This document shows, piece by piece, positions 6,313 to 36,309 of a DNA stretch of 37,873 bases. The position numbers and the translations under genes are program-made. The notes under the pieces were generated by a model, which was not told the DNA's origin, made no database searches, and saw only the letters and a list, made by a program, of their open reading frames with translations. The stretch is from positions 1 through 37,873 of IMG/VR virus record IMGVR_UViG_3300042368_001293, one strand, 5' to 3'. The first letter of the stretch is position 1; every line of letters starts with the position of its first letter. This DNA is from a virus.

Positions 6313-6990
6313 TCACATAGCGTAAAACCGACAAACGTCCTCGCGCAAGCGATTCACAATCGGCTTGGCCCCGGTGGCGCTCATCATCGACTCCAGCTCG
6401 CCCCCTCTCGCGTTGACCGTCACGAACATGGGCCTCATCGCCCTCCGGCGTTCTTCGATCACATGGAATAAATCGGCCTCAACCCGGTCGGTCAGCTTCA
6501 TCTTGTCGAGGTCGTCAAGGACCAGCACATCACACCGAATGCTCCGGTCGATCATCCGGCGGCGCTCCGAGCCCTCCGGTGATCCCGCGGCATAGGCAAA
6601 GCCCGTTCCGGTCAGGAGGCTCACCGTGCGCCCCTGTTCGTGCTGACGGCGGGCGAGTTCGTGAATGACGAACGTCTTACCGGCTCTGGACTCACCGATC
6701 AACCCGACACCCCGAGGTGACCATTGCCACTCCAGCACCGTTCTCGCGGCGGCCTTGGACGAATCCGGGAGTCGGTCGAACTCGAAGCCCTGGTAGGCGA
6801 GCGGACAAAAATCGGCCCAGAGCATGGCCGTGACCCGCTTCGGCTCGATGAGGGCCGCCTCCTTCACCGCCTGACACGCTTCGCAAAAATGCTCCGCGAC
6901 AGTGACGCTGCGACCAAGCAGCGTGAACGTGGCCGAGGCCGAGTCGAACAGGTCGCCGCACTGGCGACAGGATGCGGGGCGGGTGATCAT
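6313..6990 (-). CDS. DnaC-like helicase loader (AAA+ ATPase with zinc ribbon)
   Basis: A 225-residue protein. It probably brings the host replicative helicase to the phage origin opened by the initiator encoded just upstream. Residues 8-39 carry a CxxC...CxxC set (C8, C11, C36, C39) that should bind zinc. The AAA+ core shows Walker A GESRAGKT (99-106), Walker B VLVLDD (155-160), a sensor-1-like TVNA (191-194) and a late arginine (RLRED, about 214). DnaC/DnaI-type loaders have this arrangement. ATG at 6990 is preferred over longer starts: it has GGGAG about 9 nt upstream and lies 1 nt from the previous stop. The pair with the preceding gene mirrors lambda O/P or DnaT/DnaC. Confidence 0.88.
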   Translation of the reverse strand: MITRPASCRQCGDLFDSASATFTLLGRSVTVAEHFCEACQAVKEAALIEPKRVTAMLWADFCPLAYQGFEFDRLPDSSKAAARTVLEWQWSPRGVGLIGESRAGKTFVIHELARRQHEQGRTVSLLTGTGFAYAAGSPEGSERRRMIDRSIRCDVLVLDDLDKMKLTDRVEADLFHVIEERRRAMRPMFVTVNARGGELESMMSATGAKPIVNRLREDVCRFYAM

Positions 6991-6991
6991 G

Positions 6992-7723
6992 TCAAAACTC
7001 CCTCCCCCCCGCCGTGACCGCCCTCGCGTCCTCATCCTCCCAGCCCGCCCGGTCGATCCAGGTCGCCGGATGCGGGATGAACTGGCCGCCGTCCTTCAGC
7101 CACTCCCTCGAACGGACCTGCCAGGCTAACGTCGCCAGCACCCGGTCGATGGGCGGCCTCGCCCCGCACCAAGATTTGATCGCGTCGTTCTTCGCCACCT
7201 TCTTCGGGTAGGCTTCCCAGAATTCGACAAAGCCATGCATGGGAGACACCCCGTCACCCACGGGTGACGAAGAGACTTGTTCCCTTCCTTTCCCTTCCTT
7301 GTTCCCTTCCTTTCCCTTCCTTTCCGCTTTCCCGGCGTGGGGCACGCGTGGTTCACGCGTGGGGCACGCGTCAAGATCGTTGCACTGCAAGGGATCCGGC
7401 AGTTCAGACTCCCGCTCGCGGTTGTTGATGACCTGATGCGTCAAAAACGTCGGAATGACCCCAAAAACACCCGTGAGTGACGCGTATTTTTGAATGAATC
7501 CACGCGTGGTCAACGCGTCGAGCACGCGTGAAAAGTCGATTTCGTCGTATGGACAGATCTGGACTCCGAGCCGTCGAGGCTCCCACTTGAACCGACCCTC
7601 CCGGTCAGCGGCACACCACAAACCGACGAACGAAAGCCGGATCGGAAGCCCCGTTTCGCGCTCCAGATCGAAGAGTTCCTCATGCGTGAAAAACTCCGGT
7701 TTGATCGTACGAATTCTCATCAT
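6992..7723 (-). CDS. Phage replication initiator / replisome organiser (lambda O-like role)
   Basis: A 243-residue protein. The N-terminus (MMRIRTIKPEFFTHEELFDL..) is typical of phage replication proteins that bind the origin with a winged-helix domain (residues about 1-110: FSRVLDALTTRGFIQKY, VFGVIPTFLTHQ). A highly charged Gly/Lys/Glu linker follows (about 134-150), then a C-terminal domain of the primosome type (FVEFWEAYPKK.AKNDAIKSW......IPHPATWI, about 163-235), the usual helicase-loader contact. The gene contains iterons and a polypyrimidine tract, so it probably carries its own origin as lambda O does. An AGAGGAG sequence precedes the ATG. The start overlaps the previous stop as ATGA, and the helicase loader follows 1 nt after its stop. 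Confidence 0.85.
   Translation of the reverse strand: MMRIRTIKPEFFTHEELFDLERETGLPIRLSFVGLWCAADREGRFKWEPRRLGVQICPYDEIDFSRVLDALTTRGFIQKYASLTGVFGVIPTFLTHQVINNRERESELPDPLQCNDLDACPTREPRVPHAGKAERKGKEGNKEGKGREQVSSSPVGDGVSPMHGFVEFWEAYPKKVAKNDAIKSWCGARPPIDRVLATLAWQVRSREWLKDGGQFIPHPATWIDRAGWEDEDARAVTAGGREF
7276..7319. repeat. Tandem 22-bp polypyrimidine repeat inside the initiator gene
   Basis: Two perfect 22-bp copies (7276-7297, 7298-7319), almost pure pyrimidine on the + strand with a single G per copy. The pyrimidine run continues to about 7325. The tract encodes the Gly/Lys/Glu linker of the initiator. It lies next to the iterons and could serve as an easily opened or triplex-forming part of the origin, in the position of the AT-rich segment in lambda. 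Confidence 0.75.
7332..7375. repeat. Iteron cluster A (11-bp repeats) within the initiator gene
   Basis: Four head-to-tail 11-bp units starting at 7332, 7343, 7354 and 7365. The second and third read CACGCGTGG plus two bases; the first is degenerate (CCGGCGTGGGG) and the last keeps CACGCGT. An 11-bp period is one helical turn and not a multiple of three, so protein sequence does not explain it. Initiators of the lambda-O type bind such repeats. Confidence 0.65.
7468..7533. repeat. Iteron cluster B (11-bp register) within the initiator gene
   Basis: Six 11-bp slots starting at 7468, 7479, 7490, 7501, 7512 and 7523. Slots 7501 and 7523 hold CACGCGTG, 7512 holds AACGCGT, 7479 holds GACGCGT and 7468 holds CACCCGTG; slot 7490 has no match. 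The core is the same as in cluster A, about 100 bp away, with an AT-richer stretch between 7480 and 7500. Together the clusters look like an initiator-binding origin. Confidence 0.6.
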
Positions 7724-7962
7724 TTTTTCTCCTCTTTCCCCCTCGTAAAATGCACGAACCGATAATAAAGCCGCCCTCCGATCCGCCTCGACCGGAGCCG
7801 AAACGTCTCCCTCCTCGCCACCTGTCTGGTCATCGCGGCCTCAAGGACGTGGTGAATCCGGGCGCTCGGCGGAGCGTCCACGGCCACCCGGATCTCCTCG
7901 ACAGTGCGCTCGATGCCGTCAGCGAGAAGGTCGAGAATGGCGTCTCGGTAAGGGCTGATCAT
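7720..7962 (-). CDS. Small winged-helix-like DNA-binding protein
   Basis: An 80-residue basic protein. The pattern ..YRDAILDLLADGIERTVEEIRVAVDAPPSARIHHVLEAAMTRQVARRETFRLRSRRIGGRLYYRFV.. reads as helix, helix-turn-helix, then a two-stranded wing, typical of winged-helix DNA-binding domains. It lies directly before the replication initiator and overlaps it as ATGA, so it may regulate replication genes or assist at the origin. Seventeen bases separate it from the previous gene, with no clear Shine-Dalgarno sequence. No closer family can be named. Confidence 0.65.
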   Translation of the reverse strand: MISPYRDAILDLLADGIERTVEEIRVAVDAPPSARIHHVLEAAMTRQVARRETFRLRSRRIGGRLYYRFVHFTRGKEEKK

Positions 7963-7979
7963 GCGGAGTTGGTGTTCGA

Positions 7980-8258
7980 CTAAAGGCGGGAATTTCTCTC
8001 CGAGATGATCGCCAGATCGATGATGCCCTCAAGGTGTCGGGACTGGCTATAGTTTCCGAGCTTTTCAATCGCCGCCTCCGCAATCCACCTGATTGCGACA
8101 TTTGCTTTCCCGACCACCTCAATGTCTGGAGCCTCAACGACGAGTTCGGCGAATTTCCGCCAGTCTTTTGAAATTACCGCACCGGAGATTCTCGCGATCA
8201 TTTCGGCGTCGTCCTCGTTGATTTCGCCTGGAAGGAAAGAATTTGGGGTATCACTCAT
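7980..8258 (-). CDS. Small acidic protein of unknown function
   Basis: A 92-residue protein, mostly helical (NEDDAEMIARISGAVISKDW..., then WIAEAAIEKLGNY...). ATG at 8258 is preferred: it has a strong GGGAGGGG about 4 nt upstream, and a longer in-frame start lacks support. It overlaps the end of the membrane-protein gene upstream by 8 bp. No motif is recognised. It is part of the early replication/recombination operon. Confidence 0.65.
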   Translation of the reverse strand: MSDTPNSFLPGEINEDDAEMIARISGAVISKDWRKFAELVVEAPDIEVVGKANVAIRWIAEAAIEKLGNYSQSRHLEGIIDLAIISERNSRL

Positions 8259-8451
8259 GACCCCTCCCTTCCTCAAACCGCTCCCATTCCGCCATGACGC
8301 GCATGGCATTCAGCTCCCCGCTTAGTTCCGCCACCTGGGCCTCGGCGGCCCTCAGGCGGCGCTCCTGCGCTATGTGTTGCGCCCACCCGAAGGCGAGCCC
8401 GATGGTGAGGCCAATGGCCATGGACGCGATGGTCCCGTAAACTTCTCTCAT
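8251..8451 (-). CDS. Small single-pass membrane protein with coiled coil
   Basis: A 66-residue protein with one membrane helix (residues about 5-25, VYGTIASMAIGLTIGLAFGWA) followed by a charged heptad-like helix (QERRLRAAEAQVAELSGELNAMRVMAEWERF). The topology resembles inner-membrane spanins or small exclusion proteins, yet it sits in the recombination/replication operon, far from the lysis genes. The start overlaps the nuclease stop as ATGA. Function is unknown; superinfection exclusion or membrane anchoring of early proteins are possibilities. Confidence 0.65.
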   Translation of the reverse strand: MREVYGTIASMAIGLTIGLAFGWAQHIAQERRLRAAEAQVAELSGELNAMRVMAEWERFEEGRGHE

Positions 8452-8831
8452 GTCAGGTAATCGGTGATAATTTTAATTGCTTCGTCTTTTCCGTAGGCGA
8501 CCTGCGCCGAATATCCCCTCGACCGCATCGCGGCGATCCACTCGCACTGGAGATCGGACAAGCCGCCCTTGCCGCCTCGAACCGGGCGACTGCCCTCGGC
8601 CTTCATTTCAAGGAACAGGCCATGGAACCCCTTTCGGGCGACCGGAAGAAAGATGTCAGGCACCCCAGGCTTCACGCCCTCGGCCTTCATCTTTCGAGCG
8701 ACCAGAAGGTTCCGGTGGCCGCCGTTTGGAATCGCGAACATCCACTGAAGGTCCGGGAACTCCAAACGGCTCCACTGCGCCCACACAAAGAGCGCAGCCT
8801 GCTCGTCGTGTTCAAGGCGGTATGTTTTCAT
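8448..8831 (-). CDS. VRR-NUC domain nuclease
   Basis: A 127-residue protein made of one VRR-NUC domain, a branch of the PD-(D/E)xK nucleases that in phages is thought to cut branched DNA. Visible signatures: E10/Q11 near the start, NGGHR (about 36-40), GVPDIFL with D59, and LEMKAEG with E75 and K77 as the ExK pair, then a C-terminal helix (..CEWIAAMRSRGYSAQVAYGKDEAIKII). ATG at 8831 overlaps the upstream stop as ATGA; longer in-frame starts lie in the neighbour and are rejected. Next to recE- and recT-like genes it likely resolves recombination or replication intermediates before packaging. Confidence 0.88.
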   Translation of the reverse strand: MKTYRLEHDEQAALFVWAQWSRLEFPDLQWMFAIPNGGHRNLLVARKMKAEGVKPGVPDIFLPVARKGFHGLFLEMKAEGSRPVRGGKGGLSDLQCEWIAAMRSRGYSAQVAYGKDEAIKIITDYLT

Positions 8832-9229
8832 CGCTTGATCCGCACCGCCATTGCCAGCGCCTCCTTGGTTGGCAGGTGGTCGATGCTCGGCTCGATCCCC
8901 TTTTGCGCCGGAATGAGTCTGCCCGGAATGACTATCCTTGGAGTCGCTTTGCGCAAAGCGCCGCGCACCATGCGCTCGGGCCTCGCCTTCTGAATCCTTG
9001 GGTAGCTCATGCGCTCGGGCTGAGGTGGCACTCCGCATTGAAGGTCAAGCTTTCCACCGAGCTTCACATATCGGTCCAAACGCCGTTGCAGTTGAGACCG
9101 TTGCGCCTCGGACAAGTCGAAGTTTTCGATGCTGTCCTCGGGAAGAAGGTCGCGAACCGCGCGGAGGTTGAGCCGAATGACTCGCGCTCCGTTCAGCTTT
9201 TGCAGGTGATATATCGACTTGTCGCTCAT
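8828..9229 (-). CDS. Protein of unknown function in the recombination operon
   Basis: A 133-residue basic protein (start MSDKSIYHLQKLNGARVIRL). ATG at 9229 overlaps the RecE-like stop as ATGA. Residues about 35-60 form a charged helix (LSEAQRSQLQRRLDRYVKLG), and the C-terminal half is rich in Pro, Arg and Lys with a short hydrophobic strand (RIVIPGRLIP). No zinc or catalytic motif is seen. Between a RecE-like exonuclease and a VRR-NUC nuclease, a role in DNA metabolism is likely, but this rests on context only. Confidence 0.6.
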   Translation of the reverse strand: MSDKSIYHLQKLNGARVIRLNLRAVRDLLPEDSIENFDLSEAQRSQLQRRLDRYVKLGGKLDLQCGVPPQPERMSYPRIQKARPERMVRGALRKATPRIVIPGRLIPAQKGIEPSIDHLPTKEALAMAVRIKR

Positions 9230-10029
9230 GCCCACTTCGGGATGCTGATGACGCGGATCTCGTCATCGAACGGATTGGGGAAATTCCCGGTCTTGTGGCT
9301 GTGGCACCACTTCTCCAGAGCGGTCAGATACCACTCCCGGCCCTTCGCAATGCTGTCGGCATCCAGCTCGACCACGGCAATTTCGTAGGGGGATTCCGAC
9401 TCCTGGAAGATGAAACCCCACCGGGTCCGGTTCTCGCCGCTCGCGGCGTTGAACATGTCGAGATACCACGCCGCCTGGGCATGATACCCGAATTCCGCGA
9501 TGGTCGCCGGGAGCTTCGAGATCGACTGCGTGGTCTTGAGATCGACCAGCCAATCCCCGAAAGCCCCGGCGGCGTCCGGCACAATGTCGATCCGGCACTT
9601 GCCACTGAACCGCTCGCCGGTCTTGTCCTCGATGCCCTCGACCAAGGCCGAAACCTGCGCCGCGGCGCCGTCGAGGATCGCTCCAGCAAAGTGATGGGAG
9701 CGGATCAGTTCCGCCGCCTTCTTGGCCTCAGCCACCTGGGCCAAGGTGACGATGGGGACGGTCTGCGAATCCCGCCACGACTGCGCTTCCTTGGTCCGAA
9801 AGTCGGGAAAGGAGGACACCGCGAAGCATTGGGAAAGTTCCTGCGGCTGCAACAGGCAGCAATCGACCAAGCTTCCCCAGTTCATGCTGGCGGTCGGAGC
9901 CATGGGCTCGTCTTTCGTCAGGAGCCACTTGTGCGGGTTCTTGGCGAACTTCCACAGGGTGGACTTCGAGACGGCAGGGAACGCGTGGTAAGCGGCCTCG
10001 GGGACGTTGAGGTTGATGCCCTCGATCAT
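9226..10029 (-). CDS. RecE-like exonuclease (PD-(D/E)xK, DUF3799 type)
   Basis: A 267-residue protein of the phage RecE-like exonuclease family, which degrades one strand of double-stranded DNA to expose a 3' tail for the annealing partner. The beginning (AAYHAFPAVSKSTLWKFAKNPHKW) is the family's usual entry (..YH....lSkS.L....~sP..y). The catalytic core shows D148 in GKCRIDIV and the DLK motif (D163, K165) in WLVDLKTT, followed by the helix with EFGYHAQAAWYLDM that closes the active site. ATG at 10029 overlaps the RecT-like stop as ATGA and has a near-perfect AGGAGGTGAT ribosome site. Confidence 0.88.
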   Translation of the reverse strand: MIEGINLNVPEAAYHAFPAVSKSTLWKFAKNPHKWLLTKDEPMAPTASMNWGSLVDCCLLQPQELSQCFAVSSFPDFRTKEAQSWRDSQTVPIVTLAQVAEAKKAAELIRSHHFAGAILDGAAAQVSALVEGIEDKTGERFSGKCRIDIVPDAAGAFGDWLVDLKTTQSISKLPATIAEFGYHAQAAWYLDMFNAASGENRTRWGFIFQESESPYEIAVVELDADSIAKGREWYLTALEKWCHSHKTGNFPNPFDDEIRVISIPKWA

Positions 10030-10862
10030 GCGATCACCTCCTGCGCCCTGAGTTGCCCCGCGACCTCCTCGACCGTGGACCAATCGCTGGCCACCTTCTC
10101 AAGCGTGGCCGGGTCCATCTTGCTGAACGGCGTCTTGCCGTCGCCGATTCCAAGTGTAGCGAGCGCACCGAGCGCCTCGCTCACCTTGAGGCCGGACTTG
10201 GTCAGCTTGGCCTTGATGACTTCGAGCGGATCGGGAGCTTTCTCCTCGACCACCTCGACCGAGGCGACCACAGGAACGGGCTCCGCCTTGGCTCGCGCAA
10301 ACGGCGTCTTCGGCGTGATGTCGCGGACCTCCCGACCCATCCCACCCGTGTCGATGACCTCCTCGGTCGTCGGCAGGCCCAGCGAGATTTCGGGAGCCGT
10401 GACGCGGATCATGAATGCAGCGGCCCGGTAGGAGCGCATCAGCTCCGGCATCGTCTGCCACTTCGACCCGTTCTTGGAGAGCCAGCCCTCGGCCTTGGCC
10501 ATGTTCATCGAAACCCACGGCCCGAGGATCTCGCGACCGGTGGCCAACTCGGTGGCACACGCACGGGTTCGACCACCGTCCTGGTCGTCGTGTTCGTAGC
10601 GGATGGCCGAGAATCGACCGCACGAATTGAAGCACCCGATGAGGAACTTCGAGGAGAAGCCGGGCTTGCCGTGGATGATGTCCACGTTCTGCATGACGAG
10701 AAACGGGTCGGCCTTCATTCGGTCGGCCAGTTGGATGGCGATGAAGCAGTTGCCGAGGTTCCCTTGGAATGCCTTCGGGACAATGTCCGCATTGGCGAAC
10801 AGCTCTGCGGTTTGGCGCATGATGGCGAAACCGCCTTGGTTTTGGATGGTAAGTTCGTTCAT
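10026..10862 (-). CDS. RecT-like single-strand annealing recombinase
   Basis: A 278-residue protein matching the RecT-type annealing proteins of phages. Residues about 30-190 hold the typical string: IQLADRMKADPFLVMQN, IIHGKPGFSSKFLIGCFN, a G-rich turn, MAKAEGW, then GSKWQTMPELMRSYRAAAF and PEISLGLPTTEEVID. The C-terminal third is Pro/Lys/Glu-rich and may bind single-strand-binding protein or the exonuclease. ATG at 10862 is preferred; an upstream GTG at 10907 would add 15 basic residues without support. The next gene is the RecE-like exonuclease, so the two form a Red-like pair for recombination, repair or genome circularisation. Confidence 0.88.
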   Translation of the reverse strand: MNELTIQNQGGFAIMRQTAELFANADIVPKAFQGNLGNCFIAIQLADRMKADPFLVMQNVDIIHGKPGFSSKFLIGCFNSCGRFSAIRYEHDDQDGGRTRACATELATGREILGPWVSMNMAKAEGWLSKNGSKWQTMPELMRSYRAAAFMIRVTAPEISLGLPTTEEVIDTGGMGREVRDITPKTPFARAKAEPVPVVASVEVVEEKAPDPLEVIKAKLTKSGLKVSEALGALATLGIGDGKTPFSKMDPATLEKVASDWSTVEEVAGQLRAQEVIA

Positions 10863-10909
10863 TTTGTTCTGTGCGCGTTTCCGTCGCGCCCCGGTTGTTT
10901 GCGACACCG

Positions 10910-11116
10910 TCAGGACTCAAGGAATTCCACTTGAGGCTTTTCGCCGCGAAGGTCTTGGTATTTCATTTGCAACGCTGCGGATTGAAGGATTTTCCCCGCC
11001 GCAGAAACCTTGGCGCGAACCTCGCGAAGGTCCGCGTCGCCATTGACCAAGTCGTTAAAGACGTTAATGAGTTCTCCGCGCAACTCCTCGTTGCTCGTAA
11101 TTTTCGATTTTTTCAT
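10910..11116 (-). CDS. Small helical protein upstream of recT-like gene
   Basis: A 68-residue charged protein, all helical by appearance (NEELRGELINVFNDLVNGDADLREVRAKVSAAGKILQSAALQMKYQDLRGEKPQVEFLES). Short proteins with a ..LR..L......l..G..d...a......aGKIl.saklql.Y pattern occur before recombination genes in phages of several hosts; the function is unknown. It overlaps the previous gene as ATGA and has a weak AGAGAAA ribosome site. It sits in an A+T-richer patch that extends upstream. Forty-seven bases separate it from the RecT-like start. Confidence 0.72.
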   Translation of the reverse strand: MKKSKITSNEELRGELINVFNDLVNGDADLREVRAKVSAAGKILQSAALQMKYQDLRGEKPQVEFLES

Positions 11117-11733
11117 GGTTTTGTTTCTCTTTTGGTTTTGTAGTTCGCCATCAATCCGATGGCAAAAATCAGTCTTGCGATTGCCAAGATTTCAACAGTC
11201 GCGTCTTTTGCTAAAATGTTAAACCGGACAAGGACGGCAGAAGGGCTTAACTCGGCGGCTTCTTGAAGAAACGAAATGGCGGCGATCTGTGCCGTTTTCA
11301 TTTTTCTCCTCGTTTTGTATTCGCGATACAAAAACCGACCTTGCGGGATTTGCTCAAAGTCGGAAATTATTTTCAGCATGATCCCAGGAAAAACCCGATA
11401 ACTCCCGTCGCTGAAGAAAAATTCCCCTTTGGAATATTCAATTTTCCAAACATTCCAATCGGAAAGCTTGAGAAACCAACCGTGAGCGAGTGCCGCGAAA
11501 CCCGCTCGGCGATTATCGGAAAAACGCCACCGGTTTCCGTCGAGGTAGACTTGCTGCCCCATGAATTTCTTCGAGATATGAACAAGCTTTCCTTCACTGA
11601 ACGCCCATGCCAAAATCGCCCTCCTCACATCGCGGTCTTCGCAAAAATACTTGACCTCGGAATGAAAAGCCTCGGCAAGACCAAGAACAACCTCGGTAGA
11701 AAGGTCTCGTCGAATTTGTTCTGTGACGGTCAT
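11113..11733 (-). CDS. Protein of unknown function, possible nested second product
   Basis: A 206-residue protein rich in aromatics (..KYFCEDRDVRRAILAWAF; RWRFSDNRRAGFAALAHGWFLKLSDWNVWKIEYSKGEFFFSDGSYRVF). The middle looks like a small beta-rich fold; no known motif. The last 62 codons, from an in-frame ATG at 11301 preceded by a strong GAGGAG six bases away, could be made separately. That part is hydrophobic (ILAIARLIFAIGLMANY) and might be membrane-associated. By eye the base composition is lower in G+C than in neighbouring genes, which suggests a different origin. The ATG at 11733 directly follows the upstream stop. Confidence 0.6.
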   Translation of the reverse strand: MTVTEQIRRDLSTEVVLGLAEAFHSEVKYFCEDRDVRRAILAWAFSEGKLVHISKKFMGQQVYLDGNRWRFSDNRRAGFAALAHGWFLKLSDWNVWKIEYSKGEFFFSDGSYRVFPGIMLKIISDFEQIPQGRFLYREYKTRRKMKTAQIAAISFLQEAAELSPSAVLVRFNILAKDATVEILAIARLIFAIGLMANYKTKRETKP

Positions 11734-11934
11734 TTAAATCCGTTCGTTGATGCGGGCGATCACCCGCTTACGGTCTTCCTCTCCCACCGCCGAAAGCGGC
11801 AGGATGTCGCCGGACTCCATGTCGAGGACTGAGACGACCTCAGCCCGCTCGACCTCGACCCAGACATACCGGTCTTCGTAGTCCCCGTTGAGCAGGTAGA
11901 GTTCGACAGCCCCATCGGAAAGTGCCTCGCTCAT
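11734..11934 (-). CDS. Small acidic protein, unknown function
   Basis: A 66-residue, strongly acidic protein (start MSEALSDGAVELYLLNGDYE), probably a short beta sheet plus a C-terminal helix (EEDRKRVIARINERI). ATG at 11934 is chosen because it overlaps the upstream stop as ATGA and has AAGGAG nearby; a longer in-frame extension is an Arg/Gly-rich shadow. I do not recognise the family. It belongs to the small early genes downstream of the control region. Confidence 0.65.
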   Translation of the reverse strand: MSEALSDGAVELYLLNGDYEDRYVWVEVERAEVVSVLDMESGDILPLSAVGEEDRKRVIARINERI

Positions 11935-12164
11935 GCCCTGCTCCTTTCCCTCGCACGCTCGATGTCGCGCTTGGCCCAGAAGTTCATGCCGGAATCGACG
12001 CTCGGGCGGATCCCGGCCTCCTTGGCCCAGGCGCGGAAAGCCTTCCGGCTCTTGTATCCCGCCCAACGCGCAGCCTCGTTGTCGCCTCGCAGCCACGGCG
12101 AGGTTGACACCGTGACAGCCGCCTCGATGCGGTCGAGGCGCTCGATGATTTCCGAGTCACTCAT
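11931..12164 (-). CDS. Possible excisionase / small helix-turn-helix DNA-binding protein
   Basis: A 77-residue basic protein. After a short leading helix, residues 22-70 (SPWLRGDNEAARWAGYKSRKAFRAWAKEAGI...GMNFWAKRDIERA) match the general form of excisionase/MerR-like winged-helix domains: W(L)...EAA...GY.S...F..W....GI.P...G...W....I. Excisionases of this size bend attachment-site DNA to direct excision. It lies in the leftward early operon starting about 1.2 kb from the attP candidate. The start overlaps the previous gene by 8 bp. A role as a regulator of early transcription cannot be excluded. Confidence 0.6.
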   Translation of the reverse strand: MSDSEIIERLDRIEAAVTVSTSPWLRGDNEAARWAGYKSRKAFRAWAKEAGIRPSVDSGMNFWAKRDIERARERSRA

Positions 12165-12393
12165 CGTGGCCTCCGATCAGTTCACCGATGAGGCTGCCCG
12201 TTTTGGGCCACGCGACCACATGGGTCTCGGGCTCAAGGGTGAACTTCATCGCTTTGTAGTTGACGATCCGGGAGCATGGCTTGCTGGCAATGTGCCTCGC
12301 GAACTCCATGCACTTTGAGCGGGTCGGGAAATGACCGACGCCCAGGAAGGATTCGCCGTCGTTGGTGAGGTAGCGCGGAACCCAGATGGTCAT
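12157..12393 (-). CDS. Small early protein, unknown function
   Basis: A 78-residue protein (start MTIWVPRYLTNDGESFLGVG). It has alternating beta-strand and helix character, with one Cys in RSKCMEF and one in SKPCSRI, and a hydrophobic strand THVVAWP. No known motif. The ATG overlaps the preceding stop as ATGA. It is the third gene of the leftward early operon. Confidence 0.65.
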   Translation of the reverse strand: MTIWVPRYLTNDGESFLGVGHFPTRSKCMEFARHIASKPCSRIVNYKAMKFTLEPETHVVAWPKTGSLIGELIGGHDE

Positions 12394-12596
12394 GCGGCAC
12401 CTCCCACTTCAAGGATTGCGTCCCACGGCACGAACGAGGACACCCGCTTGCGGCCCACCACCCGCACCCCCTCGCCAGAGACGAGAACGATGCGACCGGA
12501 TCGCGTTCTCAGGGTCTTGTGAGAGCGAAACTTGATCCGCGTGCCGATAGCGTGCCGCACGGGCATGTCGAGGATGAGGGAGGCGTTAGGGTTCAT
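12390..12596 (-). CDS. Small basic early protein, unknown function
   Basis: A 68-residue basic protein that looks all-beta (..GTRIKFRSHKTLRTRSGRIVLVSGEGVRVVGRKRVSSFVPWDAILEV), resembling a small SH3- or KOW-like barrel in pattern. That is an impression only. A good GAGGAGG ribosome site precedes the ATG, which overlaps the stop of the first early gene as ATGA. It might bind nucleic acid or polymerase. Confidence 0.65.
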   Translation of the reverse strand: MNPNASLILDMPVRHAIGTRIKFRSHKTLRTRSGRIVLVSGEGVRVVGRKRVSSFVPWDAILEVGGAA

Positions 12597-12769
12597 TGGG
12601 CCTCCTCGGGTTGGGGTTCGCGGTCGCTTTCCAGCTCGTCAGACACGACCAGTTCCAGCGCGTCGAGGAACAGCTTCGTCGCTTGCGCCCGACGACTGCG
12701 GCGCTCCCGACGTGCCAGCTCGTCGAGCCGCTCGCCGTGGTGATCGTCGATTTCAAAGTTCAGGATCAT
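12593..12769 (-). CDS. Small ribbon-helix-helix protein, first gene of the leftward early operon
   Basis: A 58-residue protein starting MILNFEIDDHHGERL and ending ..QPEEAQ. The pattern (short beta strand LNFEI; helix HHGERLDELARRERR; turn SRRAQ; helix ATKLFLDALELVV; acidic tail) fits the Arc/CopG-type ribbon-helix-helix fold, in which paired strands of a dimer read DNA. The ATG at 12769 has no Shine-Dalgarno sequence, and the expected leader from the predicted promoter is about 30 nt. The gene lies opposite a second ribbon-helix-helix gene with three operators between. It may be a Cro-like early regulator. Its short length means it is easily missed. Confidence 0.6.
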   Translation of the reverse strand: MILNFEIDDHHGERLDELARRERRSRRAQATKLFLDALELVVSDELESDREPQPEEAQ

Positions 12770-12803
12770 TGATTGTTAATGTTGAGTGATTGTTTCAAAG
12801 CGC

Positions 12804-12872
12804 GGTATTAAACACCGGGTGTTAAACACCGCAACAGAAAAATTGCTATTCTTGAAAAAAATGTTAAACACC
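12804..12872. promoter_or_regulatory. Three operator copies (GGTGTT-A-AACACC) between divergent ribbon-helix-helix genes
   Basis: Operator 1 is 12804-12816 (GGTATTAAACACC, one mismatch). Operator 2 is 12818-12830 (GGTGTTAAACACC, a perfect dyad around a central A). Operator 3 is 12860-12872 (AATGTTAAACACC). Start-to-start distances are 14 and 42 bp, so all lie on a 14-bp register. Operators 1 and 2 together form a larger dyad (GCGGT...ACCGC). Operator 3 ends 5 bp before the rightward ATG. The arrangement suggests cooperative binding of a small dimeric repressor. Confidence 0.7.
12806..12834 (-). promoter_or_regulatory. Predicted leftward early promoter
   Basis: On the leftward strand TTGCGG (12834-12829) is followed by a 17-bp spacer and TTAATA (12811-12806), a good sigma-70-type pair. 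Operator 2 occupies the spacer and operator 1 covers the -10 box, so a bound repressor would block it. Transcription would start near 12799, some 30 nt before the ATG at 12769, and could run through the whole early and packaging region. Confidence 0.6.
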
Positions 12873-12877
12873 CTTGG

Positions 12878-13069
12878 ATGCCAGCGCAGAGGAAAGAGGG
12901 CAAGCGCCTGTGGGGAGGCTACTTAGAACCGGACGACTTCGACCGGCTCGATGCCGATGCGAAGCGCAGAGGCTTCGCGACCAGGACCGACTTTCTGGCC
13001 TGGTTCGCAAAGAACTGCCAGGGTCTGGTCACCCGAGGGACCAAGTCAGGGAACAGCGAAGAGAAGTGA
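12878..13069 (+). CDS. Ribbon-helix-helix DNA-binding protein, candidate lysogeny repressor
   Basis: A 63-residue protein, rightward, opposite to almost all other genes. Residues 9-15 (KRLWGGY) can form the DNA-reading strand. Residues 18-31 (PDDFDRLDADAKRR) form helix A, then a GFATR turn, and residues 37-46 (TDFLAWFAKN) form helix B, followed by a basic tail. This is the Arc/CopG-like pattern. Operator 3 ends 5 bp upstream of the ATG, consistent with autoregulation. There is no Shine-Dalgarno sequence. It is the only other rightward gene besides the integrase, as expected for a repressor expressed in the lysogen. An antitoxin is an alternative, but no toxin gene is nearby. Confidence 0.65.
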   Translation: MPAQRKEGKRLWGGYLEPDDFDRLDADAKRRGFATRTDFLAWFAKNCQGLVTRGTKSGNSEEK

Positions 13070-13160
13070 TCGCCATGCGTAAAAATACTGAACGCGTGAA
13101 CAGCGTCAAGAGCGATCTGTGAGGAGCCGGAAAACGGCAGTGCCAATGGCCTCAAAAAAC

Positions 13161-13182
13161 CGAACCGCCACCGAACCGCCAC
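13161..13182 (+). repeat. Integrase arm-type repeats, left arm of attP (2 copies)
   Basis: Two perfect head-to-tail copies of the 11-mer CGAACCGCCAC (13161-13171 and 13172-13182). The same element appears three times on the far side of the putative core, in the same orientation. Tandem direct repeats on both sides of a core are the usual layout for arm-type binding sites of tyrosine integrases. Confidence 0.65.
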
Positions 13183-13232
13183 TTCTCAAAAAAAAGAGCC
13201 CGGAACCCTTGCGGTTGCTCAATCTGCACACA

Positions 13233-13254
13233 GGTTCGACTCCCCTCACCTCCA
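13233..13254 (+). other. Candidate attP core matching the 3' end of a tRNA-Ala or tmRNA gene
   Basis: GGTTCGACTCCCCTCACCTC followed by CA reproduces a T-loop (GTTCGAC), the 3' half of a T-stem (CCCCT) and an acceptor 3' strand CACCTCC with discriminator A. U at position 70 would pair with G3, the identity element for alanine charging, so tRNA-Ala or tmRNA is the likely target. The left half of the T-stem is absent here (ACAGG cannot pair with CCCCT), so this is not an intact RNA gene. That is what a phage-borne copy used for integration should look like. It lies between the two arm-repeat clusters and 127 bp before the integrase. Confidence 0.65.
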
Positions 13255-13296
13255 CTTTTTCGGACCCCGAAACCACGGTAGAATAAGGGTTCCAGC

Positions 13297-13325
13297 TTCT
13301 CAGGTTGTGCAAAATAGGGTATTCT
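13297..13325 (+). promoter_or_regulatory. Weak candidate promoter for the integrase gene
   Basis: TTCTCA (13297-13302), a 17-bp spacer and TATTCT (13320-13325) match the sigma-70 consensus at four of six positions each. The expected start falls at about 13331, at the edge of the right arm repeats, so integrase bound there would repress its own gene. The match is modest. Confidence 0.35.
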
Positions 13326-13333
13326 TGTGCCAC

Positions 13334-13366
13334 TGAACCGCCACTGAACCGCCACCGAACTGCCAC
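13334..13366 (+). repeat. Integrase arm-type repeats, right arm of attP (3 copies)
   Basis: Three head-to-tail 11-mers: TGAACCGCCAC (13334-13344), TGAACCGCCAC (13345-13355) and CGAACTGCCAC (13356-13366). A degenerate unit precedes them (13323-13333, sharing only GCCAC). They end 14 bp before the integrase ATG. Confidence 0.65.
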
Positions 13367-13380
13367 TCTGGGGAACAAGA

Positions 13381-14565
13381 ATGCCCGCAAATCCACAACG
13401 AACGAGAGCCGGAACCGTCCCCATCGTTTACCTCCCCGACCGGGACCGGTGGCAGTTGACCACCCACTCAAACGGCAAGCGGAAACGGACCTTCTACGAA
13501 ACTGAGAAGGACGCCCTCACTGCCTGGTCGAAGCACTGCCACCGGGTGAAACGATTCGGCTCCGGGTCCGGCGACTACTCCCCCGAGGATCACGCGGAGT
13601 TCCGGGAGGCGAAGCGGATCACCGGCGGCGAAGACCTTCGTCAGGTGGCCGCATTTTGGCGAGCGCACCACCCGGAGGGTCAGGACAGCGCCACCCTTCC
13701 CGAGGCCGCCAGCGCGTTTCTGGAGGCTCAGAAAGGGAAGGGGCTGTCGGTTCGCCACATGGCCGCCCTCACTCAGCACGTTGAGACCTTCGCTTCCTGC
13801 TTCGCCTCCCGCGAGGTGGCCGCCATCTCAGGCAATGACCTCCTCGATTGGCTCCGCGAACTCCGCTTCGAGCCGAGGACGGTGCGGAACTACGCCGGGA
13901 GCCTTCGGGCTTTCTTCAACTGGTGCAAGCGAAGGAACCTGATCACCGTCTCGCCGGGCGATGCGATCCATGAGGCAGACCTTCCCGCCGCGAGACCGAA
14001 GGCCAAGGGTGTCTTGTCGGTGGACCAGTGCGCGGCCATGATGCTCTACCTCGAAATGGAGCGCCCGAAGTACATCCCCTGGCACGCGCTCCAGCTCTTC
14101 GCCGGGATCCGGCGGGCGGAGGTGGGCAGACTCCGATGGGAGTGGATCGACCTCGACGCCAAGACAATCACCCTGCCGGGCTGGTCCGAGGGAAAGCGGG
14201 TTGTGAAAACGGGCGACGATTGGGCGCTGCATGACCTACCCGCGAGCCTCTGGCAATGGCTTCAAGCGTACCCCGGAACCGGAAAGATCCGCGTCCCCGG
14301 CAATGTCACAGTCGAGGCGATGCGTCAAAAAGACTTCCCCAAGCTCGGGATCCCGGAATGGCCCCAGAACGCGATGCGCCACACCTTCTGCACCATGCTC
14401 ATGTCCCTGCATGGTGACGCGGCGAAAGTCGCCAACTGGTCCCGGCACACCAACGCGGCCCAACTTTACCGGAGCTACGTTGCCAAGCTCGTCAGTCGGG
14501 ATGAGGCGGGGAGGTTTTGCAGGATCGCTCCCGCTATATCTCCTCGGCCTCAAACAGCACCCTGA
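13381..14565 (+). CDS. int: Site-specific tyrosine recombinase (phage integrase)
   Basis: A 394-residue tyrosine recombinase that should join attP to the host attachment site. The N-terminal region (about 1-60) would bind arm repeats. A SAM-like core-binding domain spans about 105-200 (..SVRHMAALTQHVETFAS...WCKRRNLI) and the catalytic domain about 210-380. Catalytic residues: R244 in AGIRRAEVGRLRW, R333 in NAMRHTF, H356 in SRHTN, and Y366 as probable nucleophile (LYRSYV; Y363 is the alternative). The usual His of HxxR is Asn (N330), a change I associate with integrases of Verrucomicrobiota and relatives. The gene lies beside the attP candidate. A GGGGA about 8 nt before ATG could serve as ribosome site. 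Confidence 0.93.
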   Translation: MPANPQRTRAGTVPIVYLPDRDRWQLTTHSNGKRKRTFYETEKDALTAWSKHCHRVKRFGSGSGDYSPEDHAEFREAKRITGGEDLRQVAAFWRAHHPEGQDSATLPEAASAFLEAQKGKGLSVRHMAALTQHVETFASCFASREVAAISGNDLLDWLRELRFEPRTVRNYAGSLRAFFNWCKRRNLITVSPGDAIHEADLPAARPKAKGVLSVDQCAAMMLYLEMERPKYIPWHALQLFAGIRRAEVGRLRWEWIDLDAKTITLPGWSEGKRVVKTGDDWALHDLPASLWQWLQAYPGTGKIRVPGNVTVEAMRQKDFPKLGIPEWPQNAMRHTFCTMLMSLHGDAAKVANWSRHTNAAQLYRSYVAKLVSRDEAGRFCRIAPAISPRPQTAP

Positions 14566-30600: not shown

Positions 30601-30934
30601 CGGTTGAATATTCCACCTTGGCCGTGACCACGACCCAATCCGCGTCGTTCAATCCCACTCCATTGGCTCGAAAAACGGTCGGAGGAGGCGGAGAATTTCC
30701 ATCGGGGAACAATAGCCTGTGGTCGGGATTCACATTCTCCACCCAATCCGCCAAGGCGTGCTGGGTCGCGAGATACATGGTCCCCGGCCTGCGAAAGGCT
30801 CCACCGTAAATCTTCGGTATGAAGTTCTCCATGATCCGGCAGGAGAACGGGTGCTTGGCCTCGTCCACACGGGCGTCCATGAGCGGGGAAAGTTCCCCCG
30901 CGTTGAAGCTGTTTCGATGGACGTGGATGCTCAT
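27662..30934 (-). CDS. Tail nozzle protein (T7 gp12-like tail tubular protein B) with repeat insertion
   Basis: A 1,090-residue protein; T7 gp12 has about 794. The N-terminus (HVHRNSFNAGELSPLMDARVDEAKHPFSCRIMENFIPKIYGGAFRRPGT) is the conserved start of gp12-like nozzles, which form the lower tail tube and the gate closing it. The body after about residue 370 has the expected features (YILAFGDGYVRIY; PRAVCFHEQRLWFGGT; LVIFTQSEEWT; WLVVNRGG). Residues about 112-365 hold an insertion of four to five imperfect copies, roughly 50 residues each, with TSA.N.SQGF..NSVWV......VY.C......ATWVLSTA. ATG at 30934 is preferred: it forms a TGATG overlap with the upstream stop, and 54 codons of His/Arg-rich extension are a shadow. 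Confidence 0.9.
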   Translation of the reverse strand: MSIHVHRNSFNAGELSPLMDARVDEAKHPFSCRIMENFIPKIYGGAFRRPGTMYLATQHALADWVENVNPDHRLLFPDGNSPPPPTVFRANGVGLNDADWVVVTAKVEYSTASNPTSAANTTQGFSSGSVWVNLSTGAVYTCSSADGSTATWVLSTAQHNKTSTTFPIPSDDSGDGYQVGSLWFSMGNFYSANSLYLEDDGKTVYKVTSSSPWTWTLVTVQNKLDGNGPPTSADNNSQGFVVNSVWVDEPGRAVYVCTASSANSATWVLSTAKNNLDGITIPTSSNNSSQGYTSAGAYTSESYWVRNNRKLWKRNSTNSGILVWTDVTGTSNLTATRPPSGADIGHPIGDFWVWEDEDRAWELTSLTNQEPIRLFDFNVSATTRYILAFGDGYVRIYNDDGTPFIDQVNSPNNLPLQLATPYLADDLFEVQIAQLGNLAYFAHPKYPPQKLERSFRAGFNANTFQWSRVNWSFPAFRDTNNSGVTAAPSATSGSSINISFTADPFVETLQYNKYTGARIMLSQRRAASHVKQALGSTASSSAVNILGAYQVFTYGTFTGTLRVQAKDKAGAWTTLRSFEFTAETGGRQIVFSSATQEATDLRLDVTHTSTPSGASPVAYLEAGDSRRVGYARISDGIGFNESLPVVDCAVQLPFDSTAATTEWAIEAWAEYAGWPRAVCFHEQRLWFGGTELQPNTIWASATGDYENFRRGAFDNDALAFTLAAQEGSAIQSLVSHSNLVIFTQSEEWTAATSQQTAITPSNIFVRRQSRFGSTHRQAFVAANNLLFLQRGARKLRQFSYGQGGEGVASDLTLLAEHITRSGIRQMAFQQQPDPIIWAVRNDGVLLSLTYEPDQSVIAWARHTSGTGLVESVAVIYGDEGDADQVWLVVNRGGTRLIERFDPDHFAKLDEDNADELVYVDSAVLVSGSPSTTISGLSHLNGSTVAILADAGVEESKVVSSGQVSIGTAASVRIAGIPYVSRLQPSKIEVGMGNGTAQGRRFVAKRATLNLWKTFGAQYADDPSATDSKWFEVLGRSTETNSGEAEPLYTGMVDITNLGAHKTSIDFTLRQTLPLPCNILAVIPKIEVLGT

Positions 30935-33210
30935 CAGGTCTTGATGATGTAGTTGAGGATGATGGTGGGCTGGAGTGATGACGCGCCTCCGGTTGGAGTC
31001 GTGACGGAGGTGACGCGAGTCGCGCCGCCGCCAGTGGTTGTGGTGTTTGCCGACGAGCGCGTGATCGAGTGCGAGTGAGTTTCTACCCCGCCCCAATTCC
31101 CAAGAATGTCACCATCGAGAGATGCGGCCGTGAGTCGCCCAGCGTCCCCTCCGCCCGTGCCGACGGAGTTGTCCATGTTGTCGCGCCCCGCGACCACGCG
31201 ACCACGAAGGTCGGGGAGGGTGAAGGACGACGCATCGACGGACCCATAGGTCGTGCCGATGGCGGTGAAGAGGTCGGCATAGGTCGTGCGCGAAACGGAC
31301 GACCCGTCGCACCAGAGCCACCCGGCAGGAAGTGCCATTCCGGCATAGGGGGTCACCATCCCGGTGAGGATTCCGAATCCATCGTTTCCTCGCTTTGATA
31401 CGGTGAACCCATGCGCGGCGTTGATTGAGCCGAACGACCCCTGGATATTTTTCGCACTGACTTCAATTGCCCCGGTGCCTGTGTCAAATGTTGATACCAC
31501 CTCAAACGAGATGTGGGTCGTTGCCGAACTGGCGTTGACGTAGTCGCCCGCTGCCAACTTGATTGCGGGTATGAACGTGGCACTGTTGAAAAAAATGTTG
31601 AAGCTTATTCCTGGTGCCGGACTCCCAGATGATACGGAAAAAATCGTCCCGAACGGATTCGTGTTCCCGTCCGTTGTTCTGGTCAGTTGAATACCAGAAG
31701 ATGGGCCTTGAACTCCCGCCGGACCCGCATTCCCCTGCTGTCCTTGCGCTCCGACTTCCCCCTTGTCCCCCGTCCGGCTGAAACCCACTTCAAGGACATC
31801 CCCGGCGTTGATCGTGCCGACGCTGGACACTGGCGTCACCGAGACAATCCTGCCTCCGGTGATGCTCGTCGTCGCCCCGGTGATGTTGAAGAGGCGTTGC
31901 ACTCCGGGTTGATTTTTCTTGATGATGCGGATCTGCCCCCGAATGGCACTGCTGCTGTCATCGAACGAATCCAGCCATGCGGACTGGTCGATGAGATAGT
32001 CGTCGGTCGTGCTGAGTAGGATCGCGGTGATATTCGCGAAGGTTGCATTGTTGAAGATCAAGAACCGATTGAACGCAGTGGCAGTTGATGTGCCGCTTGA
32101 AAATTGATACTGCGCCCCGATGGGGCCGGGAGGTCCGCTCGGAAGCACGAAGTTTAGCTGTTGAGCTGGAGGGGCTCCACTGATGGTCACTCCGTAAGCG
32201 TTGGAGTCGTAGGACACCGCTGAAACATTTCCGACGTTTAGGGAATTCGCCGGACCCGCCGGTCCCTCAGGCCCGATCTGACCCTGGATTCCTTGAATCC
32301 CTTGCTGCCCTTGCGGTCCTTGCGGACCAGCCGGTCCTGCCGGTCCCTGCTGACCCTCGGCAATATTGAAGACCACACCTCCCCACCCGCCGCCGCCCTT
32401 CGGGCCGTAGATGTTGCCGCTGTTCGTGTCGAGCCAGAAGTCACCCTCCCCTCCATCTCCCGAGGAAGGCGCGCCTTCGCCTTGTAACCAAAGCGAGCCC
32501 ACCCCCGCCGGTCCTTGCGGTCCCACTGGTCCCGCCGGTCCTTGCGGTCCACCCGCTGGTCCTTGTGGTCCCACTGGTCCCGGAGGTCCGGGCGGGCCGA
32601 CGACCGTCCTGACGTGGTCGAAGTCGCCGTTCATGGGGCGGACATTCCGTCCAATGGCCCCGCGCTCAAGCGGGTCCGGCGTCCTCAAGCCTTGGTTGGC
32701 ATCGACCATGCGGGCTTCCTTGAGGCGGCGCTCTGAATGGCGGTCGAGGTTCTGCTTTCGGCCATCGCTGCCCGTGATCTGAACGCACGCCGCGGCGGCG
32801 AGACGGTGCGCCAACACGTCCGCGAAGAGGGCGTCCCATTGGCCCGGATCGGTGACCCTTGCCACATAGGTGATCTGGGCCGAGGAGGAATTGGTCACCA
32901 GCATCCCGCCTTCGACGGCGAAGGACGATTGACACGCCCCGGCCTCGACCATGTTGAAGGTTTCGAGGCGGAGGAAGTCTGCCGGGAGCGGGAACTGGTA
33001 TTGCCACCCGAAAGGCGGATCATCAGCGGCCCTCGACAGCTCGACCCGCTCGATGGCGAAGTCCCACGCGTGGGATCGCAGGAGCGAATCCCGGACCTGC
33101 TCGTAGTGGATTCCGAGCGCCCGAGCTGCCGCAGTCCCGTCGTCCAGTGACAGGATAGCCGGTTCCCCGAGGAGGGAGAGGGCTCGGTTGGCAATGTCGG
33201 TTTCGGTCAT
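30934..33210 (-). CDS. Tail adaptor (T7 gp11-like) fused to collagen-like stalk and tail-collar tip
   Basis: A 758-residue fusion. Residues 1-175 are a gp11-like head-tail adaptor ([18 protein letters not shown]....[23 protein letters not shown]...[16 protein letters not shown]), homologous to the start of the gene two places upstream. Residues about 204-237 and 286-321 are collagen-like Gly-X-Y repeats, followed by beta-rich segments and a third short Gly-X-Y run. Residues about 617-758 are a phage tail-collar type domain ([20 protein letters not shown]...[15 protein letters not shown]...ETHSHSI...), common at fibre tips. The adaptor part would sit in the ring under the portal, projecting a fibre from it. 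The start overlaps the upstream stop as ATGA and the nozzle follows by TGATG. Confidence 0.85.
32503..32600. repeat. Collagen-like (Gly-Pro-X) coding repeat
   Basis: Short 9-bp-type units (variants of GGTCCxxxT) encode the first collagen-like segment of the second adaptor-fibre protein. Such runs change length easily by slippage and recombination. Confidence 0.85.
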
Positions 33211-33626
33211 GCGGACATAGCTTCAATGCCTGCTCTCATCGTTGCCTTTGTCGCGGCGAAAGTCGCGATTTGATCAGAGGTAAAAGAGGATGGCGAATCG
33301 GCATATTCAATAAGCGCGATTGCCGCCGCGTCGTCGCCCTCGTCGAGAAGCCTTGAGGCTGCTTCGAATTTATCCCGGAATGGGCCACGGATGAAATCGG
33401 GAAGAGCCTTCCAATCAGCTCGGAGTTGCGCGAGCTTGGAGCGTCGAAGGCTAGCCTGTTGTTGCGCCGCCGCTAGCGATTCTTCTGTTGCTTCGCGATG
33501 CGCTTCGATTTCGGCCATGGATGGGACTGGCCCGCCATCCCCGGCGGTAATGTCATCTCCGAAAACTCGCCACCCACCTCGATTGGGCCATGCGAAAGAA
33601 AGAATATCGTGGGTTGTTGCTGTCAT
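33207..33626 (-). CDS. Protein between the two adaptor-fibre genes, possible fibre assembly factor
   Basis: A 139-residue protein. A short N-terminal part ([27 protein letters not shown]) is followed by a helical region ([62 protein letters not shown]) and a helical C-terminus. Small genes directly after a fibre gene often encode assembly chaperones, and the early-helix pattern resembles such proteins. No family can be named with certainty. It is coupled on both sides: TGATG with the first fibre gene and ATGA with the second. Confidence 0.65.
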
Positions 33627-36211: not shown

Positions 36212-36223
36212 TGCCGGAAGGAT

Positions 36224-36294
36224 TGCGGGAGCAGGATTTGAACCCGCGCCGCCTGGTTATGAGCCAGGTATCCTGCCAGGCTAGACGATCCCGC
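36224..36294 (-). tRNA. tRNA with CAT anticodon (elongator Met, or Ile2 if modified)
   Basis: A 71-nt cloverleaf read leftward. The acceptor starts GCGGGAT and ends CTCCCGC plus discriminator A (36224), with the seventh pair T/C mismatched. The anticodon arm is CCTGG-CTCATAA-CCAGG, with CAT. The T arm is CGGGT-TCAAATC-like and pairs with ATCCTG. CCA is not encoded. It is not an initiator: pair 1-72 is G-C and the anticodon stem lacks the GGG/CCC run. It lies between the head and tail genes, 12 nt before the adaptor-fibre ATG. Confidence 0.85.
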
Positions 36295-36309
36295 GGTTGA
36301 AAGGAGAAA

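Follow-up and report, generated by a model that had tools for sequence, protein, structure and literature searches.

A divergent ribbon-helix-helix gene pair as the probable lysis-lysogeny switch of a temperate podovirus

The window analyzed here, a complete IMG/VR record of 37,873 bp classified as a virus, carries a locus that is probably a lysis-lysogeny (immunity) switch in which two divergent ribbon-helix-helix (RHH) proteins replace helix-turn-helix (HTH) repressors, with the rightward protein (RHH2) as the repressor and the leftward protein (RHH1) in a Cro-like role. The cI/cro-type layout built from two RHH proteins, as proposed by the first-pass annotation, is supported by five further pairs with operators at the same promoter elements, by replacement of the pair and its operators between near-identical phages, by the absence of RHH2 from relatives that lack an integrase gene (int), and by the presence of one pair in a bacterial chromosome.

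The gene pair and its genomic setting

The element is a temperate podovirus, and the proteins closest to its portal protein are those of HTVC010P-type Pelagibacter podoviruses (approximately 29% identity). The 58-residue leftward gene and the 63-residue rightward gene described by the first-pass annotation were both found as open reading frames, in the following setting:

6313..12596, minus strand: leftward early operon behind RHH1 (family and profile matches)
12593..12769, minus strand: RHH1 (58 aa), which heads the leftward early operon and occupies the Cro position (open reading frame and translation)
12878..13069, plus strand: RHH2 (63 aa), the rightward regulator, which occupies the CI position and precedes attP and int (open reading frame and translation)
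13151..13367, plus strand: probable attP (direct repeats at 13159-13183 and 13321-13367)
13381..14565, plus strand: tyrosine integrase, 394 aa (Pfam PF00589 and phrog_1)

The early operon encodes small proteins together with RecT, an exonuclease, a VRR-NUC protein, a replication initiator, and a DnaC-like loader. On the opposite side, the attP repeats are units of the ACCGAACCGCC type, about 11 bp in length, which flank the core on both sides between RHH2 and int. The core, near 13208-13257, weakly resembles the 3' end of a tmRNA (E = 0.9, below gathering) and is possibly tmRNA 3'-end-like. As attP lies outside the regulatory module, the switch would stay attached to the early operon after integration.

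RHH_1 is the sole profile match of either window protein, and both scores (E = 0.0069 for RHH1 and 0.23 for RHH2) are below the cut-off. Among the related elements described below, the Pfam RHH_1 (PF01402) cut-off is passed by the RHH2 proteins of L024, L106, L112, and L118 and by the RHH1 proteins of L024, L112, and L118. RHH1 of the window has alignable homologues in L011, L020, L024, and L027, while RHH2 of the window occupies the same locus as its counterparts; its QRKxG start recurs in L024 and L106, and its SG..EEK end recurs in L024. These aligned relatives remove most of the doubt, and the RHH fold first assigned to the two window proteins is probable on the basis of the relatives and of helix-helix models. 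AF2 modeling placed helices at residues 9-23 and 26-48 of RHH1 (mean pLDDT 72) and at residues 18-31 and 36-47 of RHH2; these models are monomers of modest confidence, and the RHH strand forms only in the dimer. The RHH2 model gave weak matches in VIA-align to the RHH domains of NikR, CopG, and MazE9 (Z 3.7-4.1), and a Foldseek search with the RHH1 model returned no matching chain.

Operators and promoters

The region between RHH1 and RHH2 spans 108 bp, is AT-rich (GC 0.36), and contains the following predicted elements:

12804..12816, no strand: O1, predicted operator GGTATTAAACACC, a dyad overlapping the leftward -10
12818..12830, no strand: O2, predicted operator GGTGTTAAACACC, a dyad overlapping the end of the leftward -35 and the spacer
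12860..12872, no strand: O3, predicted operator AATGTTAAACACC, a dyad overlapping the rightward -10 and ending 5 bp before the RHH2 ATG
12807..12834, minus strand: probable leftward early promoter, TTGCGG (12834-12829), 16 bp, TTTAAT (12812-12807) (sequence; a -35/-10 pair likewise surrounds operator 2 in L024, L027, and L106)
12843..12870, plus strand: probable rightward promoter, TTGCTA (12843-12848), 16 bp, TAAACA (12865-12870) (sequence; TTGCAT-16-TATGAC at the equivalent place in L024 and L106)

Three copies of a dyad had been claimed for this region, and three were located, each 13 bp in length, but only the middle copy (O2) is perfect, the other two departing from it at 1 and 2 positions. 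When the intergenic sequence was shuffled by dinucleotides, 5 of 2000 shuffles scored as high as the observed dyads, and no second 110-bp stretch with three such sites is present elsewhere in the window. The 14-bp register attributed to the dyads holds in the window, where the starts are 14 and 42 bp apart, but does not extend to the relatives, in which the corresponding distances are 24-26 and 44-48 bp. The third dyad does lie directly ahead of the rightward ATG, as had been described.

The leftward promoter was initially read as a well-formed TTGCGG-17-TTAATA. A promoter site with two operators is indeed predicted there, but the -10 in that reading is weak, and TTGCGG-16-TTTAAT, one base over, is better, with 3/6 and 5/6 matches to consensus. 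The window promoters, leftward and rightward, have only moderate consensus matches, and a simple sigma-70 scan, which demands A at position 2 of the -10, reported no promoter at the leftward site. No Shine-Dalgarno sequence was found ahead of RHH2, which, together with the spacing of the rightward promoter and the location of the ATG 5 bp past the dyad, suggests that the RHH2 mRNA is likely leaderless or nearly so. The near-identical contigs L003 and L004 have no substitution between the RHH genes; their differences cluster elsewhere, and they therefore carry no information on constraint in the intergenic region.

In the window phage, the strand predicted to read DNA is LNFEI in RHH1 but LWGGYL in RHH2, and this difference leaves recognition of shared operators by both proteins without support. 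Moreover, RHH1 has an acidic residue at a predicted reading position, which is odd for DNA binding. In L024, L106, L112, and L118, the predicted reading strands of both proteins are of the T-x-T type, which supports the use of shared operators. In the window phage, RHH1 may act as a protein antagonist of RHH2. A possible, though rather doubtful, explanation is that RHH1 is a protein antirepressor, which pairs with RHH2 via the RHH dimer interface and strips it from the operators. Glu or Asp at the usual base-reading positions would suit this role, both in RHH1 of the window (MILNFEI) and in its L011 and L020 homologues (MKILIEI and MKILIDI), and these homologues occur without RHH2 and without GGTGT operators. 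However, their retention where there is no RHH2 to antagonize argues against an antirepressor, and RHH1 of L024, L106, L112, and L118 has an ordinary T-x-T strand like that of RHH2.

The same layout in other elements

Divergent RHH pairs were identified in five further elements, namely L024, L027, L106, L112/L113, and L118. The six pairs have intergenic lengths of 100-118 bp with dyads at equivalent promoter elements. As in a cI/Cro-type switch, the window has divergent regulators with shared dyads over both predicted promoters, and the same is true of L024, L118, L106, L112, and L027; in addition, one regulator of the window heads the early operon and the integrase is on the opposite side. 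The dyads of L024, L118, L106, and L112 are GGTGTNNNACACC (one L118 copy has GGCGT), and the L027 dyad is GCCGTNNNACGGC. Between the operator in the promoter spacer and the last operator, the starts are 42, 44, 44, 45, 44, and 48 bp apart in the six pairs, and the gap from the end of the last operator to the RHH2 ATG is 2-5 bp in all but L027 (about 21 bp), whose dyad pair is by itself statistically weak (89 of 2000 shuffles). The leftward promoters of L024 (TTGACG-16-TATTAT), L106 (TTGACA-17-TAGAAC), and L027 (TTGACC-17-TATTCC) each have an operator in the spacer.

These elements were reached by several routes. When the integrase or one of the two window proteins served as the IMG/VR query, only two near-identical contigs were returned, and the search with the terminase was the source of useful relatives, including L024 and L027 (78% TerL identity), both of which have int and a divergent RHH pair; no comparable early region was seen in L039 and L042. 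A search of IMG/VR with the operator pattern by itself returned ten stretches, three of them in known records (window siblings and L024). One of the others was L106, a contig of 52 kb whose divergent RHH pair was reached by its operators alone, whereas the matches in L102, L103, L105, and L108 were discarded as lying in tandem repeats or coding repeats. L118 was reached by a search with the RHH2 protein of L106. Among 388 Verrucomicrobiota genomes, the operator pattern had one match, the divergent RHH pair L112/L113 in a 489-kb chromosomal contig, and the reversed pattern had none. Genes for RecT and exonuclease VIII belong to the leftward operon that the L113 pair heads. Searches of annotated phages gave no match for either window protein or the L106 RHH2 and one weak match for the integrase; L024 RHH2 had no match among plasmids, and a scan of genome contigs found no named prophage with the switch.

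Two further operator triples of the GGTGTNNNACACC type were left out of the pair count because each lies beside a single RHH or RHH-like gene. The gene in L101 (7097-7400) passes Pfam RHH_1 and also adjoins a tyrosine integrase, and that in L104 (6983-7236) has no Pfam match. Both suggest that the GGTGT-type operator is used more widely. In L119 (1-1800), an integrase gene is followed by an RHH2-like gene (MANQRKKG...) and other RHH-like genes in tandem, and the dyad GGTGATAATCACC lies ahead of more than one gene, representing a third half-site class in a tandem layout. A related small gene with no family match follows RHH2 in both L106 (4408-4689) and L112 (1835-2227).

Replacement of the pair and its link to the integrase

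The early genes behind RHH1 and the gene behind int are 91-99% identical between L024 and L027, and int is 81% identical, whereas identity falls to 26% for RHH2, 35% for RHH1, and 45% for the intergenic region, which is the level of shuffled sequence. The operators also differ, with GGTGT in L024 and GCCGT in L027. This comparison indicates that the RHH pair and its operators are replaced together, as in heteroimmune phages, which gives indirect support for a repressor that would maintain lysogeny and confer immunity. At the place of attP, L024 and L027 have what looks like the 5' portion of a tRNA-Val gene, and the integrase and its target site thus appear to have been replaced as well.

Although most genes behind RHH1 in L011 are 97-100% identical to those of the window, its 14-kb contig carries another RHH1 and lacks RHH2, GGTGT operators, and an integrase. 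The 37.6-kb relative L020 has a leftward-type RHH gene, and no RHH2, GGTGT operators, or integrase were found in it. RHH2 therefore follows the lysogeny genes, while an RHH1-like gene can remain without them.

RHH2 directly adjoins the attP-like region upstream of int, as might be expected of an excisionase-like accessory factor for the integrase, placed at attP and regulating its own expression. Such a role is very improbable, as the predicted RHH2 operators lie in the RHH1-RHH2 intergenic region and attP contains no copy of the dyad with two or fewer mismatches. Furthermore, the RHH2 gene is not directly beside int in L106 and L113, and the better excisionase-like candidate in the window is a 77-aa protein (11931-12164, minus strand), which by eye resembles an excisionase or a winged-helix DNA-binding protein and has no family match. 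RHH2 is most likely the lysogeny repressor, a CI-like role assigned from position only.

Searches for another regulator

The first-pass annotation saw no HTH repressor, and HTH_3 searches agree, with no match in the record of the window or in those of L004, L024, L027, L106, or L118. Had the segment absent from the window encoded a conventional repressor, this would have argued against the switch reading. In related contigs (L012 and L030), the two window ends are joined through 771 bp that hold a single plausible gene, a 274-aa open reading frame with portal-side genes on one side and capsid on the other, which by its position probably encodes the scaffold protein. No repressor is thus hidden in the absent segment, and the switch reading stands. 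No antirepressor family (ant) was present among the 25 of 26 Pfam families listed for 30 window proteins.

These results bear on the quite unlikely alternative that the pair is a secondary module like immI of phage P22 (Arc/Mnt), tuning an accessory operon or antirepressor while an unrecognized primary repressor acts from elsewhere. The P22 region, the best known divergent RHH pair, is described in the cited passages as a secondary immunity region (PMC11016777), several small genes of the window have no family match, and L113 encodes a 104-aa protein (9813-10127, minus strand) with a weak YdaS-like HTH match, which may be a second regulator, so that the RHH pair may not be the sole regulator there. 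Against a secondary module, the window record has no HTH_3 protein, the 771-bp gap contains one open reading frame in relatives, the presence of RHH2 tracks int, and RHH1 is followed by the main recombination-replication operon and not by an antirepressor gene.

Many RHH proteins are antitoxins or centromere binders, and the relatives score weakly against antitoxin models. However, a toxin-antitoxin or plasmid-partition module with autoregulating RHH proteins is extremely unlikely here: Pfam and PADLOC scans found no toxin or ParA family beside or behind either RHH gene, the operators are common to two divergent RHH genes and overlap the early-operon promoter, and, again, RHH2 accompanies int.

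Proposed mechanism

In the preferred reading of the locus as a primary switch, the genes, operators, overlap with predicted promoters, conservation, module replacement, and lack of RHH2 in relatives without int are visible in the sequence itself, and DNA binding, the identity of the repressor, leaderless translation, and autoregulation are inferred. RHH2 dimers would bind O2 and O1 and block the leftward promoter, keeping RHH1 and the recombination-replication operon silent. At higher levels, RHH2 would also occupy O3, on its own -10, and limit its own synthesis. On entry into the lytic program, RHH1, as the first product of the early operon, would most likely act in a Cro-like manner by binding O3 and turning RHH2 off; alternatively, it could act by competition or pairing with RHH2.

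Comparison with known systems

The locus resembles the lambdoid cI/cro switches (lambda and P22 immC) in its divergent regulators, in the multiple shared dyads over both promoters, in the early operon behind one regulator and the integrase near the other, and in the replacement of the module between similar phages (heteroimmunity). The lambda cI mRNA is leaderless, which parallels the predicted leaderless mRNA of RHH2. On the other hand, the predicted fold of the window proteins is RHH and not HTH, and both proteins (about 60 aa) are too short to contain a LexA/CI-type self-cleavage domain.

In P22 immI, Mnt represses arc and ant, and Arc inhibits mnt, according to the cited passages (PMC11016777; PMC7549136). 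As in the window, whose fold assignment rests on relatives and models, two RHH repressors are described there around one control region. The P22 region, in the same accounts, exerts its effect on the HTH repressor C2 by way of the antirepressor Ant, whereas the window pair, next to attP and int, heads a recombination-replication operon, and searches gave neither an HTH_3 repressor nor Ant. Among archaeal viruses, the RHH protein F55 of SSV1 keeps the integrated virus silent and binds repeats that lie at early promoters and at the F55 promoter itself (PMC5569661). These sites are tandem repeats and not dyads, and the cited sections describe no RHH counter-regulator (PMC5569661). AvtR (gp29) of the archaeal filamentous virus AFV6 is an RHH regulator that binds approximately 100 nt between its own promoter and that of the predicted RHH gene gp30 (PMC5569661); it differs from the window proteins in having two fused RHH motifs, and the same sections attribute no lysogeny function to it (PMC5569661). 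A search of the open-access literature found no account of a bacterial phage whose primary switch consists of two RHH proteins.

The chances seem evenly balanced that these elements represent a temperate phage lineage, with at least one member in Verrucomicrobiota, in which a divergent RHH pair is the only lysis-lysogeny switch. If so, the RHH reading strand, together with the half-site that matches it (GGTGT, GCCGT, or perhaps the GGTGA of L119), would define the immunity groups, and induction would have to proceed without a repressor that cleaves itself in the LexA manner. In the lysis-lysogeny switches that are best studied, the repressors are of the HTH type, and P22 Arc/Mnt, the model RHH switch, is accessory; a primary switch of two RHH proteins of about 60 residues would show the same logic built on another fold. 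The natural variation in protein and operator among the six examples could serve to derive a specificity code, and parts of this size could be rebuilt as a reporter in E. coli. A prophage without a cleavable repressor also poses a testable question of induction, and the layout provides a handle for recognizing temperate phages that have no HTH repressor.

Other features of the window

Two large proteins encoded on the minus strand (30934-33210 and 33626-36211) have similar N-terminal sequences (one is MTNTDLANMALSRLGEP), and the pair is possibly a duplicated structural gene. A tRNA-Met gene (anticodon CAT; 36223-36295, minus strand) is located directly ahead of the capsid-side genes.
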